From contig NZ_KI273144.1 in NCBI RefSeq assembly GCF_000469585.1, positions 1 through 43,182 on the forward strand: a stretch of DNA of 43,182 nt, written 5' to 3'. The DNA comes from Chrysiogenes arsenatis DSM 11915 (GTDB lineage Bacteria; Chrysiogenota; Chrysiogenetes; Chrysiogenales; Chrysiogenaceae). Under the pieces are notes generated by a model. The model was not told the origin of the DNA, made no database searches, and worked only from the letters and a program-made list of their open reading frames with translations. A program made the position numbers and the translations under genes. How positions within the stretch are numbered: the first letter of the stretch is position 1; each line of letters begins with the position of its first letter. Shown in pieces: positions 3,379 to 27,156 of the stretch.

Positions 3379-4446
3379 TTAGCTCTTTTGCTTTTGCATG
3401 CTCAGCGGAATATAATCGCAAAACGGTTCTTCTTCCATATAGTCGCCCGTCACGGAATACGCACGAGCGCGGCAGCCACCGCACACATTGACGTATTCGC
3501 ACGCGCCACACCGCCCTTTATAGGCTTTAAAGTCGCGCATATCTTGGAATAATTTCGAATTTTCCCACACATCGGCAAAGGTTTGTTCTATTAAATTGCC
3601 AGCGGAAAGTGGCAGATAGCTGCACGGCTTGGCATTGCCACGGGCGTCGATAAAGCAAATAGACTGCGCCGCGATGCACCCTTTTCCACCGCCCGTGGAA
3701 AACGTCAGCGAACGGCGCTTGAGTTTCTCTTCGTGCTTTTGGTTCAGCTGTGGCACAAGACGGTAGTAGTGCGGCGCACAGGTTGGACGCATCAGGATTT
3801 CGCTCTCTTCTTTTTCCTGATGGTAGTGCCATTCCAGAATTTCGTCGTAATCCTCTTTTTTGATAAGCTCCGCCATTACATCTTCGCCTCGTCCGGTCGG
3901 CACAATCATAAACATGTACCACGCGCTCGCACCCAGACTTTTGGCCATGCGGAACGTTGCGGCAATATCGTGTTGATTGCGTTGAGTGAACGACGAGTTG
4001 ATCAGGAATTTAATCCCGTGACGGCGGAAAAATTCTGTGGCGCGCACCACCCCTTCGAACGAGCCGTTGACTTTCCGGAAGTCGTCGTGAATTTCTGCGG
4101 TTGAGCCATCAAGGCTGAGAGAAACCATGCGGATATTCGTCCGTTTCATCTCTTCGCAAACGGCATCATTGACGAGCATCCCGTTGGTGGCCATGCAGAC
4201 ACGGAACCCTTTACCATCCGCATATTCGGCAATCTCAAAAATATCCTCGCGCATCAGCGGTTCGCCGCCGCTCAGTACAAACACCGGGGTGCAGTAGGAG
4301 GCAATCGTATCTACGAGTTTTTTCGCTTGAATCGTGTCGAGGTGAAAGCACTTGTCCATATCGGCCGACGCACGGCAATGGACACAGGCAAGATTGCACT
4401 TCTCCGTTGATTCCCAGGCGATCCATTTAGGGACGAATTCTGTCAT
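3379..4446 (-). CDS. Radical SAM/SPASM enzyme of the AhbC/AhbD/NirJ group, candidate haem b synthase
   Basis: A 355-residue radical SAM enzyme. The first cluster motif is CNLACVHC (C17, C21, C24), followed by the SAM-binding GGEP (LSGGEPL). The C-terminal SPASM domain has C313, C316, C322, C325 and C343 in a CxxCxxxxxCxxC spacing, with [14 protein letters not shown] and EEPFC, which I recognise from AhbD (Fe-coproporphyrin III oxidative decarboxylase), AhbC and NirJ. AhbD converts Fe-coproporphyrin III to haem b without oxygen. Location upstream of hemE supports a tetrapyrrole role. Which of the three activities it has cannot be decided by eye; another peptide-modifying SPASM enzyme is less likely. 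Confidence 0.72.
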
Positions 4447-13184: not shown

Positions 13185-13220
13185 GTCATTCCGAACGAGC
13201 GCAGCGAGGAGGATGCAGCT
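13185..13220. repeat. Dispersed repeat copy
   Basis: GTCATTCCGAACGAGCGCAG begins at 13185 and is followed by a CGAGGAGGATGCAGCT tail. It is closely similar to the copy at 8664-8700. Confidence 0.6.
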
Positions 13221-13257
13221 CACTTCAAAGTTGCCGTAAGGCATTGCCGCTCTCACC

Positions 13258-13318
13258 TGTCATCTCGAACAGAGTGAGAGATCTGGATTTCTCCTCGCTG
13301 CGCTCGTCGAAATGGCAG
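13258..13318. repeat. Inverted repeat of the dispersed family
   Basis: TGTCATCTCGAACAGAGTGA (from 13258) and the opposite-strand arm ending GTCGAAATGGCAG (13286-13318) belong to the same family as 6801-6877 and sit head to head with almost no spacer. Confidence 0.65.
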
Positions 13319-13505
13319 GAGTTCGTGCCTATTTTTACCGCCTCAGGTGTCAGAGCGCTTATGTAGGTCTAAAAACAGTTACAGCAATTGCACTGCAAGG
13401 ACGTTTACCAGCTATTGACCCAAAAACGTAATGACAGAATGTATGCAATGTGTGATAAATGCTGAGTGGCAGGCGGGAAACGCAGGGAAAAGAGATGAAG
13501 AAAGC

Positions 13506-13643
13506 TGGCGCGGGTTTCGGTGTTTTCATCTGTAATATCAGAATACACGGAAAATGCAGCATCTTTGCAAGCCGGAAAAATAGGTTCGCGGATTTTCTGT
13601 GTTTTGCCCTTTAATATCAGGATAGGCGGAAAATTTTCCATAT
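13506..13643. repeat. Imperfect tandem repeat, 79-base period
   Basis: The segments starting at 13515 and 13594 align over about 48 bases at roughly three-quarters identity; both contain GTGTTTT, TAATATCAG and CGGAAAA blocks. A weaker related block (CAGGCGGGAAACGCAGG at 13470-13486, compare 13567-13584) hints at a longer decayed array. It ends about 40 bases before the first cassette boundary. Confidence 0.55.
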
Positions 13644-13684
13644 ATAGGGGTGTGATATGCAGAAAAAATTCCATTTATTGTACT

Positions 13685-13691
13685 GTTAGAA
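13685..13691 (+). other. Left boundary core site of cassette 1
   Basis: GTTAGAA fits the GTTRRRY-type integron core except for the last base, and is the exact reverse complement of the first core (TTCTAAC, 14366-14372) of the attC that ends this cassette. No attC-like second half lies upstream, so this may be the crossover point in an attI remnant. Confidence 0.6.
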
Positions 13692-13707
13692 CTCACAGGA
13701 GGCTTCG

Positions 13708-14364
13708 GTGACTTCGGAAGAGCAATACAAAGAATCGTTCGGTCTCGGCACGAAGCCAGATCCGAAGAAAACCGATAGCGCACTTCAGCACGCTCTCGAT
13801 ATCAGAAAATTTGAAATCACCCTGTACTGGCAACGCGCCACGTATTTCTGGACGCTCATAGCAGCCACGTTCGCAGGGTACTTCGCTGTGCTATCTGCCG
13901 AGCACATGAAAGACAAGGAATTTAATGCCTACGTACTCGCCTGCGTGGGCTTAATCTTCTCTCTTGCTTGGTTTCTTACCAACAGAGGAAGCAAGTACTG
14001 GCAAGAGAACTGGGAAAACCACGTTGACATGCTTGAGGACGGAACTACCGGCCCTCTGTATAAGACCGTTCTTCACAGGCCAAAAGCTAATGGCATCCTC
14101 TCAGTAATTGAAGGGCCAGCACCATTCTCTGTTTCCCAAATCAATCAATGGGTGAGCCTGTTCACTGTTGCCGTATGGCTTCCGCTGATAGTGACTGTTT
14201 TGCCCGAGTTTGACTTGAAGTCCTGTGTCTCCGCGAAACATGCTGTCATCGGCACCATCACATTGGTAGCAGTTGCCATGATGCTATTCCGAACAAGATC
14301 AAACATCGTCGAAGGGCACAAGCATTCAATGTCTGTGAAACGCACTGCGGTCATCGACGAATGA
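13708..14364 (+). CDS. Cassette 1: RipA-family membrane protein
   Basis: A 218-residue protein with four predicted membrane helices (about 45-63, 73-91, 147-166 and 178-195) and a conserved soluble loop reading FLTNRGSKYWQENWENHVDMLED then GPLYKTVLHR between helices 2 and 3. I recognise this loop from the group annotated as RipA-family octameric membrane protein, after Francisella RipA; the function outside Francisella is unknown. The start is GTG at 13708 with AGGAGG five bases upstream. The gene lies 17 bases after the cassette boundary and its stop is one base before the first attC, a typical cassette layout. Confidence 0.75.
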   Translation: MTSEEQYKESFGLGTKPDPKKTDSALQHALDIRKFEITLYWQRATYFWTLIAATFAGYFAVLSAEHMKDKEFNAYVLACVGLIFSLAWFLTNRGSKYWQENWENHVDMLEDGTTGPLYKTVLHRPKANGILSVIEGPAPFSVSQINQWVSLFTVAVWLPLIVTVLPEFDLKSCVSAKHAVIGTITLVAVAMMLFRTRSNIVEGHKHSMSVKRTAVIDE

Positions 14365-14365
14365 G

Positions 14366-14452
14366 TTCTAACATGGCGCTCAACCTCGCTCCCTTCGGTC
14401 GCTGGACGCTGCGCGATAAAGCCGCGCAGCGCCGGTTAGCTCTACGTTAAGA
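14366..14452 (+). other. Integron attC recombination site 1
   Basis: This 87-base site begins with R'' TTCTAAC (14366-14372) and ends with R' GTTAAGA (14446-14452). The inner boxes are L'' GCTCAACC and L' GGTTAGC, complementary apart from one extra C in L'', the extrahelical base that IntI uses to choose the bottom strand. Between them a variable stem contains CGCTGCGCG paired with CGCGCAGCG. All features of a folded attC are present. Confidence 0.88.
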
Positions 14453-14471
14453 GTATAAGGAGTTCTTTACT

Positions 14472-15005
14472 TTGATCTGGGAATCTTGCTACTGGAAAGA
14501 ACCTCTTTTAGAGAGTGCGTTAAGATTATCTGAATACTCAGGATCAGAATCTCTTGATGAATCTCAATTAGTTCAAATCGAAAAGGATATATTTGTTGGT
14601 TTTTATACTATAAGAAAACTAATGGATACTGTGAAGATTACGGATTCTACTAGGGATTTAAAAGTTCAGATAGACTGGAGTCCCAATATAAAGCAAGTCG
14701 ATCTGTTAAATAACCATAGGATCGATGAACTTTATGATCTTAATAAAGTAGGAAAAGAAGAACGCAAGCTGAAATTCATATGTGATCAAATTGTACATAG
14801 TTACATATTTATGCCTGAAGAAAATGAATATGGTGGGCTTGCAGGATTTTACTTTACATCAGATAAGGATCGACAAAAGAAAATATTCTATATTGCTGTA
14901 CAAGGTGTGATAGATATTTTTAACGTTGTGGGCAATGATTATCCATCAGGATCTGAATATATAAGAAATCCTGAAACAGGTGAGTTCTATACTAGGGTAT
15001 GGTAA
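14472..15005 (+). CDS. Cassette 2: AT-rich protein of unknown function
   Basis: A 177-residue soluble protein, no membrane segment or signal peptide. I do not recognise a named domain. Notable stretches are FVGFYTIRKLMD, NNHRIDELYDL, KLKFICDQIVHSYIFMPEE and the C-terminal YIRNPETGEFYTRVW. Base composition is strikingly AT-rich compared with every neighbour, indicating recent foreign origin. The start is TTG at 14472, with AAGGAG at 14457-14462 directly after the attC core. One gene, one attC and no promoter of its own fit a mobile cassette. It may belong to a group of uncharacterised proteins common in environmental integrons. Confidence 0.75.
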   Translation: MIWESCYWKEPLLESALRLSEYSGSESLDESQLVQIEKDIFVGFYTIRKLMDTVKITDSTRDLKVQIDWSPNIKQVDLLNNHRIDELYDLNKVGKEERKLKFICDQIVHSYIFMPEENEYGGLAGFYFTSDKDRQKKIFYIAVQGVIDIFNVVGNDYPSGSEYIRNPETGEFYTRVW

Positions 15006-15009
15006 GAGC

Positions 15010-15078
15010 TCTTAACAATCGTAAGCACTTGACCCAAAAAAGCTACGCTTTTCCGGTCAAGTGTTACAGGCGTTATAG
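15010..15078 (+). other. Integron attC recombination site 2
   Basis: This 69-base site runs from R'' TCTTAAC (15010-15016) to R' GTTATAG (15072-15078). The arms GTAAGCACTTGACC and GGTCAAGTGTTAC pair perfectly except for one extra G in the left arm, the expected extrahelical base. R'' is the exact reverse complement of GTTAAGA at the left end of this cassette. Confidence 0.92.
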
Positions 15079-15099
15079 GTAAAAAAAAGGGAGTAAGCC

Positions 15100-16017
15100 T
15101 TGGCTGTACCTGACTTTCAATCATTGATGTTGCCATTGCTCAAGTTTTCCGCTGATGGAGAAGAGCATACGATGCAAGAAGCTCGTGACAGGCTCGCCGA
15201 GATAATGGGACTTTCCGAAGAGGATCTACGGGAAAGGCTGCCAAGTGGTCGGCAAACAACATTTGCAAATCGCGTGGCATGGTCAAAGGTCTATCTCGCA
15301 CAGGCAGGAGTCCTAGAGTCACCAAAGCGGGGGCGCTTCCATATTTCTGAGCGAGGCCGAAAAATTCTCGCTGAAGCACCCGAAAAAATTGACATCAAGT
15401 ATCTGGAGCGGTTCAAAGAGTTTCAGGAATTTCGGCAGGCGAGCAGCACGAACAGAACCGAGAAGGTTACCCACACTACTGAGAGCGAGCCGTCATCCAC
15501 GACCCCTGAAGAAACATTAGAGCAAGCCTATCAGCAATTAAGAGATGAAGTGGCGAATGAGTTACTTCATCTGATCAAAGGCAACACGCCGGAATTCTTC
15601 GAGAAATTGGTCGTCCATCTCATTGTTGCAATGGGGTATGGCGGGTCTGTTAAAGAGGCTGGTAAAGCCACCAGAAAAACCGCAGATGAAGGTATTGATG
15701 GCGTCATCAAAGAAGATCGCCTGGGCTTGGATGCAATCTATTTACAGGCCAAACGATGGGAGGCCGTTGTCGGCAGACCAGAGATCCAAAAGTTCGTCGG
15801 TGCACTTCACGGGCAGCGTGCCAAAAAAGGAGTTTTCATTACTACCAGCCGGTTTTCAAAAGAAGCTTTAGACTATGTTGGGCAGATTGACCCCAAAGTG
15901 GTTTTGATCGACGGCACCGATTTAGTCCAGCTAATGATTGATCATGGTGTCGGCGTGAGTTCTGCGGCTGTGTACGAAGTCAAAAAAGTGGATACGGATT
16001 TCTTCATTGAAGATTGA
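15100..16017 (+). CDS. mrr: Cassette 3: Mrr-type restriction endonuclease
   Basis: A 305-residue protein with both Mrr modules. The N-terminal winged-helix domain (about 5-95) has SGRQTTFANRVAWSKVYLAQAGVLESPKRGRFHISERGR. The C-terminal PD-(D/E)xK nuclease (about 160-285) has FFEKLVVHLIVAMGYGG, the active site D200 in GIDGVI, and Q216-A217-K218 in YLQAKRW, the QxK variant typical of Mrr. Mrr enzymes cut methylated DNA and thus block modified phage or plasmid DNA. The start is TTG at 15100 with GGGAG upstream. It lies 21 bases after attC 2 and 9 bases before attC 3. A threonine-rich linker (115-137) separates the domains. Confidence 0.92.
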   Translation: MAVPDFQSLMLPLLKFSADGEEHTMQEARDRLAEIMGLSEEDLRERLPSGRQTTFANRVAWSKVYLAQAGVLESPKRGRFHISERGRKILAEAPEKIDIKYLERFKEFQEFRQASSTNRTEKVTHTTESEPSSTTPEETLEQAYQQLRDEVANELLHLIKGNTPEFFEKLVVHLIVAMGYGGSVKEAGKATRKTADEGIDGVIKEDRLGLDAIYLQAKRWEAVVGRPEIQKFVGALHGQRAKKGVFITTSRFSKEALDYVGQIDPKVVLIDGTDLVQLMIDHGVGVSSAAVYEVKKVDTDFFIED

Positions 16018-16026
16018 CCGGGAAAC

Positions 16027-16104
16027 CTATAACAATCGGCTGCGAAGCGACCGATTCTCCGCCGCTTCGCGGCTCCAAACCGGCGCGTGAGCAGGGCGTT
16101 AACT
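16027..16104 (+). other. Integron attC recombination site 3
   Basis: R'' CTATAAC (16027-16033) is the exact reverse complement of the cassette's left core GTTATAG, and R' GTTAACT (16098-16104) closes the site. The 78-base interval contains self-complementary segments (GCGAAGCG with CGCTTCGC). The L boxes pair less well than in sites 1 and 2. Confidence 0.82.
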
Positions 16105-16119
16105 TTAAGGAGGGCGCCT

Positions 16120-16230
16120 GTGGTGAAACTGCTAAGCCAGCAACTGACGCGCTATAAAGCAAGCAGACACACCTCTAAACCCGACTCACAAACGAGTATG
16201 AGAAGTCTTGCATGGCAATTGCCCGAATGA
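16120..16230 (+). CDS. Possible 36-codon small ORF at the head of cassette 4
   Basis: GTG at 16120 opens a 36-codon frame (VVKLLSQQLTRYKASRHTSK and on to WQLPE) with a strong AAGGAGGG at 16107-16114, only a few bases after the attC 3 core. The peptide is basic and not hydrophobic. Its stop overlaps an ATG (ATGA) that opens a 13-codon frame. It may be a leader that carries ribosomes to the kinase gene, since cassettes usually lack long 5' leaders. I recognise no homologue. Confidence 0.4.
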   Translation: MVKLLSQQLTRYKASRHTSKPDSQTSMRSLAWQLPE

Positions 16231-16268
16231 AGTACACGCAAGAGTTCAAGGAGATTGCAACGCAATGA
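16227..16268 (+). CDS. Possible 13-codon linking ORF
   Basis: ATG at 16227 overlaps the preceding stop, encodes MKYTQEFKEIATQ and stops at 16266-16268 overlapping the kinase ATG (again ATGA). The chain of two ATGA overlaps suggests translational coupling; alternatively it could be the residue of a longer gene. It also contains the AAGGAG that serves the kinase gene. Confidence 0.35.
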   Translation: MKYTQEFKEIATQ

Positions 16269-16750
16269 AAACAATACTGCTCGGCAATGCTGGTTCCGGC
16301 AAAAGCACACTTTCCAGAAAACTAATCGCTCGGCAACCCGCTGCGCGTTTGTCGTTGGATGAAGTAGCGTTTCAGGATGGTTCGGAACGGCGTTGCCTTC
16401 AAGAGAGCATTGCGGATGTAAAGCGTTTCATCGCGGAACATGAGAGCTGGATAATCGAGGGTTGTTACGCGGATATTATCGAACCGATTCTGGCGGATTG
16501 CGAAGAGCTTATCTTCCTGAATCCTGGTGTTGACGTGTGTGTTGCAAATTGCCGCGCACGGCCATGGGAGCCAGAAAAGTTCAGTTCGCAAGAGGAACAG
16601 GATGAAAACCTAAGCAATCTGATCGAGTGGGTGACGGCGTATGAAAGCCGTTCCGACGAGTATGGGCTTCGTTGGCATCGGGAGCTTTACGACTCTTTCA
16701 CCAAGGAAAAGCGCGAGCTCAATCATTTGCACGACTATGAATCAGTGTGA
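16265..16750 (+). CDS. Cassette 4: small P-loop kinase-like protein
   Basis: A 161-residue protein beginning MKTILLGNAGSGKSTLSRKL, with a perfect Walker A (GNAGSGKS, residues 8-15), then RLSLDEVAF (the LDxxx element of adenylate/shikimate-kinase-like folds), SWIIEGCYADII and EELIFLNPG. This layout matches FlaR/topology-modulation and adenylate-kinase-like proteins, probably nucleoside or small-molecule kinases; substrate unknown. AAGGAG lies 11 bases upstream. It is the fourth gene of the array, and the end of the gene runs into a degenerate attC. Confidence 0.72.
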   Translation: MKTILLGNAGSGKSTLSRKLIARQPAARLSLDEVAFQDGSERRCLQESIADVKRFIAEHESWIIEGCYADIIEPILADCEELIFLNPGVDVCVANCRARPWEPEKFSSQEEQDENLSNLIEWVTAYESRSDEYGLRWHRELYDSFTKEKRELNHLHDYESV

Positions 16751-16791
16751 CGTAGGCGCGGCAGCACGGCATGGCTTGCGGAGCGTTATAA
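16745..16791 (+). other. Degenerate attC or attC remnant 4
   Basis: The core GTTATAA (16785-16791) preceded by GGAGC looks like an R' site, but the expected R'' (AGTTAAC, matching the cassette's left core) is replaced by GTGTGAC at 16745-16751, inside the end of the kinase gene. Internal pairing is poor. This may be a short or decayed site marking the right end of the array. Confidence 0.4.
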
Positions 16792-16891: not shown

Positions 16892-18178
16892 ATGCTAATT
16901 CAATTTACTGTCGACAATTTCCGTTCCATAAAAGATTCTGTCACCTTCAGTATGATTTCTGGCTCTAACAACACGAAAAATGTTTTCCCCGCCCGTAACT
17001 ATTCTTTACTCTCGAGCGCTGTGCTCTATGGGGCAAATGCGAGTGGTAAATCCAACATAATAAAGGCATTCGGATTTATGAGAGCAATGGTTCTCAATAC
17101 GAAAAGAGTCCTCCAGTCCACGGATACATTATTTCATGAGCCTTTTCGGCTTTCAGTAGAAACGGAATCAGCTTCAAGTTCTTTTGAGGCAGTGTTTTTA
17201 GTGTCGTCCTCCGACAAAGTGATCAAATACCGATATGGATTCGAAGCGGACAATGCGACCATATTTTCCGAATGGCTTTTTGCTGATGAAAAGGGCAAAG
17301 AGGCTCGATTGTTTTATCGGGATGTCGAAGGCAAAGAATTTTACGTGAACCCGGAAAAATTCAAAGAGGGTCATGGGCTGAAAGATAAAGTATTACCAAA
17401 TAGTCTCTTTCTTTGGAAGTGCGACCAGGATGGTGGTGCTGTATCAAAAACCATTCTGACTTGGTTTAAAAATACCAATACGATAGATGGGGCAAAGTCT
17501 TCAGAATATGCAACGTACACATTGGATCAAATGAGTAGGGGTGACCATAAATCAGAAATAGTCAAAATGGTTTGCGTCGCTGATCTTGGGGTCAGCGATA
17601 TTTTATTGGAGGAAAATGAAGTTTCTCAGGCTGAGTTGGAAAAGCTGAACATTCCAGAAAAAATGTTATCTCAATTGCGAGCAGCAAAATCCCCTTTGAT
17701 CGAGATTGGCATTAAAACGGTGCATAACAAATACGATGAAAGCGACCAGTGCATCGGCATCGAAACATTTGACCTAGATAGCGACGAGTCAGAAGGTACG
17801 AAAAAATATTTCAGCCTTTCCGCTCCGTTCTTGGATACCTTAAAAAACGGAAAAATTCTTTTTGTTGACGAACTCGACAGCAGTCTCCACCCAATGCTCA
17901 CTATCTCTTTGATTTCGATGTTTAACAACCCGAAAATCAATACAAAAAATGCCCAATTGATTTTTACAACGCACGATACAAATCTGCTCAACCAACAACT
18001 TTTTCACAAGTCACAGATTTGGTTCACTGAAAAAGATAGCTATGGGGTTACACACCTTCATTCACTGGCGGAATATAAAAAGGTTCGCCCCACAGACAAT
18101 ATAGAAAAACATTACGTTCAAGGGAAATATGGGGCTATCCCCTATCTTGGCACCTTTACTTTTGCGGAGAAGTCGTAA
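16892..18178 (+). CDS. rloA: RloA/AbiLi-like AAA (ABC-class) ATPase
   Basis: A 428-residue ATPase beginning MLIQFTVDNFRSIKDSVTFS, the usual start of the RecF/OLD-like defence ATPases. Walker A is GANASGKS (47-54), the signature region is SEGTKKYFSLS (about 300-310), Walker B is ILFVDELDSSLHP (322-334), and the switch histidine is in TTHDTNLL (H361). RloA was named for its place in restriction loci, and RloA/RloB homologues AbiLi/AbiLii give abortive phage resistance in lactococci. The stop shares one base with the rloB ATG (TAATG). Codon use is more AT-rich than the core genes around. Biological target unknown. Confidence 0.85.
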   Translation: MLIQFTVDNFRSIKDSVTFSMISGSNNTKNVFPARNYSLLSSAVLYGANASGKSNIIKAFGFMRAMVLNTKRVLQSTDTLFHEPFRLSVETESASSSFEAVFLVSSSDKVIKYRYGFEADNATIFSEWLFADEKGKEARLFYRDVEGKEFYVNPEKFKEGHGLKDKVLPNSLFLWKCDQDGGAVSKTILTWFKNTNTIDGAKSSEYATYTLDQMSRGDHKSEIVKMVCVADLGVSDILLEENEVSQAELEKLNIPEKMLSQLRAAKSPLIEIGIKTVHNKYDESDQCIGIETFDLDSDESEGTKKYFSLSAPFLDTLKNGKILFVDELDSSLHPMLTISLISMFNNPKINTKNAQLIFTTHDTNLLNQQLFHKSQIWFTEKDSYGVTHLHSLAEYKKVRPTDNIEKHYVQGKYGAIPYLGTFTFAEKS

Positions 18179-18936
18179 TGGCGCGGAGAAAATCGAATCG
18201 AGAAAAACATTCCTCGCGCAACACTCCTGCAAAGTACACGAAACGGCGTGAAAACAAATTGGAACAGCGCCATCTTGTCATTCTCGCTTGTGAGGACAAA
18301 AAAAGTGCACGCCTTTACTTTGAGCGCTATTTTGAAATTCTGAGAAATGCCAGAAGGCTTTCTGGTTTGTCGTGCGTTGTTGCCAATCATCAGCACACTG
18401 ACCCGACAGGAGTGCTTCAAGATCTGCTTGCCTACGAAGGTGTCTATGGCAACACATACAAAGATTACGAACACCGCTGGATTGTCATCGATCGTGACGA
18501 GGAGCGTTGTGGTGGAGGCGGACATACTCGTCAGAACTTTGATCAGGCTTTAGAAAAAGCGTCAAAAAACCGCCCGGAGATTAAAGTTGCTTGGTCTAAC
18601 CCATGTTTTGAAATTTGGTATTTGTTGCATTTTCATTATCACAACACGGCTATTGACCGGGATCAGGTAATCGTAAAATTGGCACAGGCCATGCGTGCGC
18701 CATACGAAAAAAATGACCCGGATATGTTTTCTCAATTGTCAAACGTAGAGAAGCCACAAGGACGGGAATCTGCTATCCGAAACGCAAGACGGCTTCATGA
18801 TGACGCAAAGCAAGCTGGGTTTCAGCCAGCAGATACTAATCCCGGAACGTCGGTATATGAATTGGTGGAAGTTCTTCTGCAATTACAGTTTTCCACTCAA
18901 GATACCGCATCACTTCAATCTGCCATATCAGAGTGA
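18178..18936 (+). CDS. rloB: RloB/AbiLii-like TOPRIM-fold protein
   Basis: A 252-residue protein with a basic N-terminus (1-30), then HLVILACEDKKSARLYFERYF with the TOPRIM-type glutamate E39, and WIVIDRDEE with D105 and D107. NPCFEIWYLLHFHYH is the strongly conserved RloB block. A TOPRIM fold implies metal-dependent nucleic acid cleavage, as in OLD nucleases where ATPase and TOPRIM are one chain; here they are two coupled genes. Together with rloA it forms an AbiL-type phage defence candidate. Activity against phage is inferred from family membership. Confidence 0.84.
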   Translation: MARRKSNREKHSSRNTPAKYTKRRENKLEQRHLVILACEDKKSARLYFERYFEILRNARRLSGLSCVVANHQHTDPTGVLQDLLAYEGVYGNTYKDYEHRWIVIDRDEERCGGGGHTRQNFDQALEKASKNRPEIKVAWSNPCFEIWYLLHFHYHNTAIDRDQVIVKLAQAMRAPYEKNDPDMFSQLSNVEKPQGRESAIRNARRLHDDAKQAGFQPADTNPGTSVYELVEVLLQLQFSTQDTASLQSAISE

Positions 18937-21489: not shown

Positions 21490-22182
21490 TTACGGCCAGC
21501 TTAATTTGCCACCATAATACGCCACGACAAACACCACGGGAACTTGCAGGAAAAAGAGGAAGTGATAAACCCACGCCAAAGTATCCGCATTGTAAGCCAC
21601 TTCCGGCACAAAAACCCGAATGGCCACCGTTGCGATTCCGCTCGCAAGCAAAATCATTGAACCCCAGAACTTGATGATAAAAATAACGGTCCAACGCAGG
21701 TCATAGTTAATCCACCAGCTCAGAAGCCCAGCAGCCACGGCCGGAATAGAAAAAAACGTTCCGCCCATAATGGCGTAATATGACGAAGCCTCATAGTGTG
21801 GGTTGCGCTCAACAAGGAACATGAACAACATGAAAGCCGCAAAGAACTTCAAGGCAATAGGGAAATGGACGAGTGCCGGATGGGGGTGAAAGCGGCTATA
21901 TAAACTTGCCAGAAATTCCTTGGTGGTCGATTCCCCTTTTTCTTCAAGAATCTTCGGCGCTGACTGCAAAGTGTCAATCTTTTGCAGCCGTTCCAGCACT
22001 TCAGCGCCATGTGGTGCCGCTTGCATGGCTGCGGTCAGGTCTTCTCCGGCGTAATGAATTTTCGCGTGGACACCATTGCGCCACATGCGGCTTGGGGTAG
22101 CATCGTACACTTGCCCTTTATAGCTGAAATACGCTGGCTGACCATCTTTTCCGCTGAACCGTTTGAGCTGTTCCGGCTTCAT
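21490..22182 (-). CDS. Cytochrome b5-like domain fused to a DUF2231-type membrane domain
   Basis: A 230-residue protein. Residues 1-75 (LKRFSGKDGQPAYFSYKGQVYDATPSR then HAKIHYAGEDLTAAMQAAPHGAEVL) look like a minimal cytochrome b5-type haem/steroid-binding domain. Residues about 95-230 (HPHPALVHFPIALKFFAAFMLF onwards) are a DUF2231-like membrane domain with four hydrophobic helices. This suggests an inner-membrane redox or haem-related protein. The ATG at 22182 has AAAGGAGGG directly upstream, preferred over ATG 22200. A diverged copy of codons 7-26 is found near 27100. Confidence 0.78.
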   Translation of the reverse strand: MKPEQLKRFSGKDGQPAYFSYKGQVYDATPSRMWRNGVHAKIHYAGEDLTAAMQAAPHGAEVLERLQKIDTLQSAPKILEEKGESTTKEFLASLYSRFHPHPALVHFPIALKFFAAFMLFMFLVERNPHYEASSYYAIMGGTFFSIPAVAAGLLSWWINYDLRWTVIFIIKFWGSMILLASGIATVAIRVFVPEVAYNADTLAWVYHFLFFLQVPVVFVVAYYGGKLSWP

Positions 22183-27090: not shown

Positions 27091-27156
27091 TCATTTGTAT
27101 ACTTGCCCTTCGTAACTGAAATACGCTGGCTGACCATCTTTTCCGCTGAACCGTTT
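27091..27156 (-). pseudogene. Fragment of a second b5-like/DUF2231 gene
   Basis: On the minus strand 27097-27156 matches 22105-22164 of the b5/DUF2231 gene base for base over most of 60 positions and encodes RFSGKDGQPAYFSYEGQVYK before a TGA at 27091-27093. The differences are mainly at third codon positions with one K-to-E change, so the fragment derives from a diverged functional paralogue, not from decay of the gene at 22182. It lies 23 bases upstream of the cheB-cheR start. Confidence 0.75.

Follow-up and report, generated by a model that had tools for sequence, protein, structure and literature searches.

A three-cassette array at an attI region of Chrysiogenes arsenatis DSM 11915, probably the proximal part of a chromosomal integron that has lost intI

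Introduction

What does an array of integron cassettes represent when no integrase gene lies near it? Clusters of attC sites lacking an integron-integrase form a class of their own, CALIN, in IntegronFinder (PMC9024848), and intI loss and off-target insertion are two proposed origins of CALINs (PMC8618304). Integrons have previously been reported from the phylum of Chrysiogenes arsenatis (PMC8618304), and both integron decay and the occurrence of more than one intI per genome have been described (Nemergut et al. 2008, PMC2426708). Here, we analyze a 43,182-nucleotide stretch of C. arsenatis DSM 11915 contig NZ_KI273144.1 (hereafter the window), in which an earlier note had recognized a "CALIN-like" cassette array and had taken it for either an integrase-free cluster or a larger integron's distal end. 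Our results make it very probable that the window holds the attI-anchored proximal part of a chromosomal integron, whose three cassettes were loaded by IntI and whose intI was later lost, and that this is one of at least seven attI sites in the genome.

Results and discussion

Anatomy of the array

The three attC sites lie exactly where the earlier note had placed them (Table 1), and in all three cassettes the 7-bp start core is, as claimed there, the exact reverse complement of the cassette's own R''. With TAAC/GTTA taken as given, nine free positions agree, for which direct calculation gives a chance probability of about 4^-9. The L-box match is broken by one extrahelical base at every site, including the two for which complementary L boxes had been described, and is weak at attC3 (3+3 bp). 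The same note had carried the array on to 16791 (GTTATAA at 16785) by way of a fourth cassette; a cassette starting at 16098 has no AGTTAAC partner, and we end the array at attC3.

Table 1. Features of the cassette array, numbered from the first base of the window
Feature	Position	Strand	Details
attI region	13515..13688	+	E 5e-27 in an nhmmer search with intact integrons and the genome's own copies; profile matches 13591-13688; alignment with 13 attIs of intI-bearing integrons
Crossover at attI/cassette 1 border	between G13685 and T13686 (G^TT)		
Cassette 1	13686..14446	+	core pair GTTAGAA (13685)/TTCTAAC (14366); gene 13708-14364
attC1	14366..14452	+	exact 83-bp match in L068; 93.5% identity over 46 bp to blaOXA-2-family attC; fold z -1.9
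Cassette 2	14447..15072	+	core pair GTTAAGA (14446)/TCTTAAC (15010); gene 14472-15005
attC2	15010..15078	+	fold z -5.0; L boxes of 4+9 bp, one base extrahelical
Cassette 3	15073..16098	+	core pair GTTATAG (15072)/CTATAAC (16027); gene 15100-16017
attC3	16027..16104	+	87.5% identity over 72 bp to attC of class 1 integron; fold not significant
P-loop kinase-like gene past attC3	16208..16750	+	AAA_33/PRK07261-like; start at 16266 likelier than 16208; no matching R'' downstream

When the bottom strands were folded and compared with shuffles, attC2 gave the strongest fold of the three sites, attC1 a moderate one and attC3 one no better than shuffles (z -0.4), so folding alone gives attC3 no support. 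A home-made attC covariance model, built from 16 sequences, proved weak, and inconsistent with its filters off: at default filters attC1 and attC3 were the only hits in the window, at poor E values of 0.18 and 1.5, respectively, and with filters off attC2 appeared at E 2.5 amid chance hits and the other two sites were unlisted. An Rfam search of the window returned tRNAs only. Sequence matches to known integrons support two of the sites. The exact counterpart of attC1 belongs to L068, a MAG integron from a genome with a full-length intI, and part of attC1 also resembles attCs of blaOXA-2-family cassettes; the attC3 homologue, from a class 1 integron, is flanked by a cupin cassette and blaGES-5 and lies beside IntI1. 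A sequence search among plasmids gave no match for attC2. We also observed that one attC body can accompany different genes, as for 14366-14452 and L068 or for L009:13771-13833 and L010:18823-18885, with the outer R'' bases fitting the start of each own cassette; such sharing may bear on cassette formation.

The cassette 1 gene encodes a member of the 8xMP membrane protein family (Pfam PF24838, E 9.7e-42), and no known family was found for the 177-aa product of cassette 2. Cassette 3 encodes an Mrr-type methyl-directed type IV restriction enzyme (PF04471, PF14338; PADLOC mREase_IV, 305.7 bits). As other arrays of the genome carry N6-methyltransferase, C5-methyltransferase and HNH nuclease genes, defence-like genes are common in these arrays; phage-defence cassettes are already known from integrons. 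Beyond attC3, the last supported attC, an AbiLi/AbiLii (RloAB-like) pair occupies 16892-18936. Elsewhere in the window, a 60-bp direct repeat is present at 22105-22164 and 27097-27156 (93% identical), and immediately left of the attI region, at 13195-13342, is a dispersed repeat whose inverted arms are 17 nt long, with relatives at other genome loci, several of them close to attI copies.

An attI region upstream of cassette 1

The 174 bp to the left of cassette 1 are the homologue of the whole intI-attI intergenic region found in intact integrons, most of which come from Desulfobacterota MAGs. The match of a whole-region model begins at about the intI start codon and ends at the G^TT crossover; 20 attIs can be aligned with the terminal GTT, including those from integrons with intI listed in Table 1, and a profile of the C. 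arsenatis stub plus leader matched 44 of 80 intI loci at E<1e-12, within the intI-attI intergenic region. Judged by these alignments, 13515-13688 is a genuine attI region, and intI is missing from roughly the start codon onwards: the expected place of the gene, left of 13515 on the minus strand, contains none of its coding sequence. Because attI homology directly precedes cassette 1, the array marks the proximal end of an intI-less integron and not, as had been suggested, the distal end of a larger one. Exact-pattern scans of genome and viral collections gave no match to the leader, and a profile search of 50 further genomes from the phylum found no copy of it. A promoter-like TTGyAA-17-TAyAnT at about -121 is conserved in five of the seven attIs of the genome and could be the cassette promoter Pc; it was not found in the window copy.

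attI copies and intI remnants across the genome

Genome-wide searches revealed further attI-anchored arrays with attCs. The 2.8-Mb genome contains seven full-length copies of the same attI, recovered as seven full hits of a profile built from seven copies, and at least two partial ones, at C22:158486 and at C8:195-281, a locus that also forms the start of C9. Homology among full copies ends at the GTTA core or no more than a few bases from it, and nearly every full copy opens a cassette whose R'' agrees exactly or with one mismatch. Exact agreement extends to 3/3 cassettes at C1:232k and 5/5 on C8 and to the first cassette (1/1) at C22:418k, C4:183k and C4:21k, with one mismatch at C1:205k and C3. 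With genome completeness of 100 and contamination of 0.26, the count of seven is more secure than the MAG counts given below.

Five full attI copies and the C8/C9 partial copy are accompanied by a divergently oriented intI 5' stub of about 25-68 residues, in the correct place and with the N-terminus MEKxHxxRPDPSxKLMDQVRAVLRY, and the stubs are cut at different points in most copies. The longest, on C1, has IntI proteins as its closest relatives, mostly from Desulfobacterota MAGs and with identity up to 75-78%. No intact intI was found: the window's contig has no TIGR02249 match, in agreement with the earlier note, and the genome has only fragments, none above the TIGR02249 cut-off, although this absence holds for an assembly of 22 contigs in which a gap could hide one copy. 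The best TIGR02249 match is a C-terminal fragment on C8 with an in-frame TGA. Compared with a complete integron, which has an intI with the IntI-specific domain and an attI adjoining the first cassette, the window retains the second component.

Other features are shared among the arrays. Four of them have a common 3' end, made up of one attC type and, after it, 124-339 bp of shared DNA, and a decayed copy of this end lies at C1:68481. An IS91-like transposase and tyrosine recombinase pair is bounded, as a cassette would be, by GTTGGAC and GTCCAAC, with an attC after the latter, at L009:13827-16282 and at C8:157085-157423 with C11:735-2211; homology between the two copies ends at GTCCAAC, and the attCs beyond are different. 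We considered possible dispersal by this IS91-like element; from what is known of IS91, the orientation of the element does not predict co-transfer of the array. Contigs C8 and C11 appear to be linked by an IS21-like element (C8:157423-158153, C11:1-734), and through this apparent join the C8 array continues into C11 with two more attCs, at 2205-2258 and 4137-4197. Positions 1-190 of C9 (L046) look like a cloning vector (polylinker, M13 primer site) and represent assembly contamination.

Of two family-mates, one carries an IntI-family gene of its own and the second (G002) an IntI1-like gene; in the latter, at L014:10612-12623, the IntI1-like gene adjoins an aadA-type attC, an arrangement like that of a class 1 integron. 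The flanks of the window array have no synteny to these two family-mates, and no empty site was demonstrable.

Origin of the array

The integron reading is supported by attI homology to intI-bearing integrons, core agreement in all three cassettes, and attC1 and attC3 homologues in integrons with intI. The other attI copies of the genome, most of them with core-matching cassettes, the intI stubs next to several of them and the lack of a TIGR02249 match above the cut-off also speak for it. In the sequence of events that we favor, an integron integrase would have recombined the attCs of the cassettes into the window attI, intI would then have been lost from about its start codon, and the array would probably have been fixed in place from that time on. 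The attI homology, the attCs, the core matches, the other copies and the absence of a full intI from the assembly are observed; that IntI made the insertions, that intI disappeared only later and that the array is now immobile we infer, the last of these on the strength of the intI loss.

A different course of events would leave the same anatomy. A single IntI encoded elsewhere could have loaded many intI-less attI platforms in trans, each an independent insertion point, with the last intact intI lost since and the genome frozen; we regard this as possible but doubtful. Here attI dispersal without intI would precede loading. About 300 bp, already devoid of intI, are shared between the attI of the window and the C3 copy, which implies at least one duplication of an intI-less module. 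Related MAGs point the same way: across 20 MAG genomes that have a related intI, full attIs outnumber intI matches in several (5/1, 4/1, 4/1 and 3/1), counts that are subject to possible mis-binning, and in two of the three MAGs whose loci were inspected, some of the extra attIs head cassettes and carry only intI stubs. The differing stub ends, by contrast, fit the separate decay of complete integrons. The attI sites may have dispersed through duplication, through repeated acquisition, or as platforms for in-trans loading by one integrase.

Insertion at a secondary, non-attI site by an integrase encoded elsewhere would produce a true CALIN and accords with a window that has no intI, but cassette 1 is immediately preceded by a full attI region that runs up to the crossover, making this origin very improbable. 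Still harder to credit is that the leader is an ordinary dispersed repeat followed by chance attC-like palindromes. The leader is indeed multi-copy, and attC3 by itself folds no better than shuffles, yet the cores agree in every cassette, two attCs have integron homologues, and the leader aligns with attIs of intact integrons, its full-copy homology stopping at or a few bases from the core; we rejected a generic dispersed repeat on these last grounds.

Relation to known systems

Placed among known systems, the integron remnant that we favor resembles a CALIN, for which at least two clustered attC sites and no nearby intI are expected, in having three in a row, with exact cores, and no intI nearby. 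It differs in keeping an attI region, repeated elsewhere in the genome, which the CALIN definition does not require. The description "CALIN-like" is right as to integron cassettes without an integrase, but it is incomplete, and the array is not an orphan attC cluster. Sedentary chromosomal integrons of Desulfobacterota MAGs (e.g. L068, L077, L116) have the same attI type, in L068 together with the exact attC1, and IntI proteins 75-78% identical to the C1 stub, but an intact intI adjoins their attI, whereas the window has none. As in decayed integrons with intI pseudogenes (PMC2426708), the integrase has been lost and cassettes kept; here, however, many attI copies of a single genome have intI cut near its start codon, and the assembly retains no full copy. 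A limited search of the open-access literature found no description of a single genome in which many attI sites accompany truncated intI.

Conclusions

These data imply that some CALINs are decapitated integrons in which attI can still be recognized, and attI profiles can therefore tell intI loss from off-target insertion. With seven attI sites lacking an intact intI in C. arsenatis, and relatives that have several attI per intI, in-trans action of an integrase on dispersed attI sites becomes testable.
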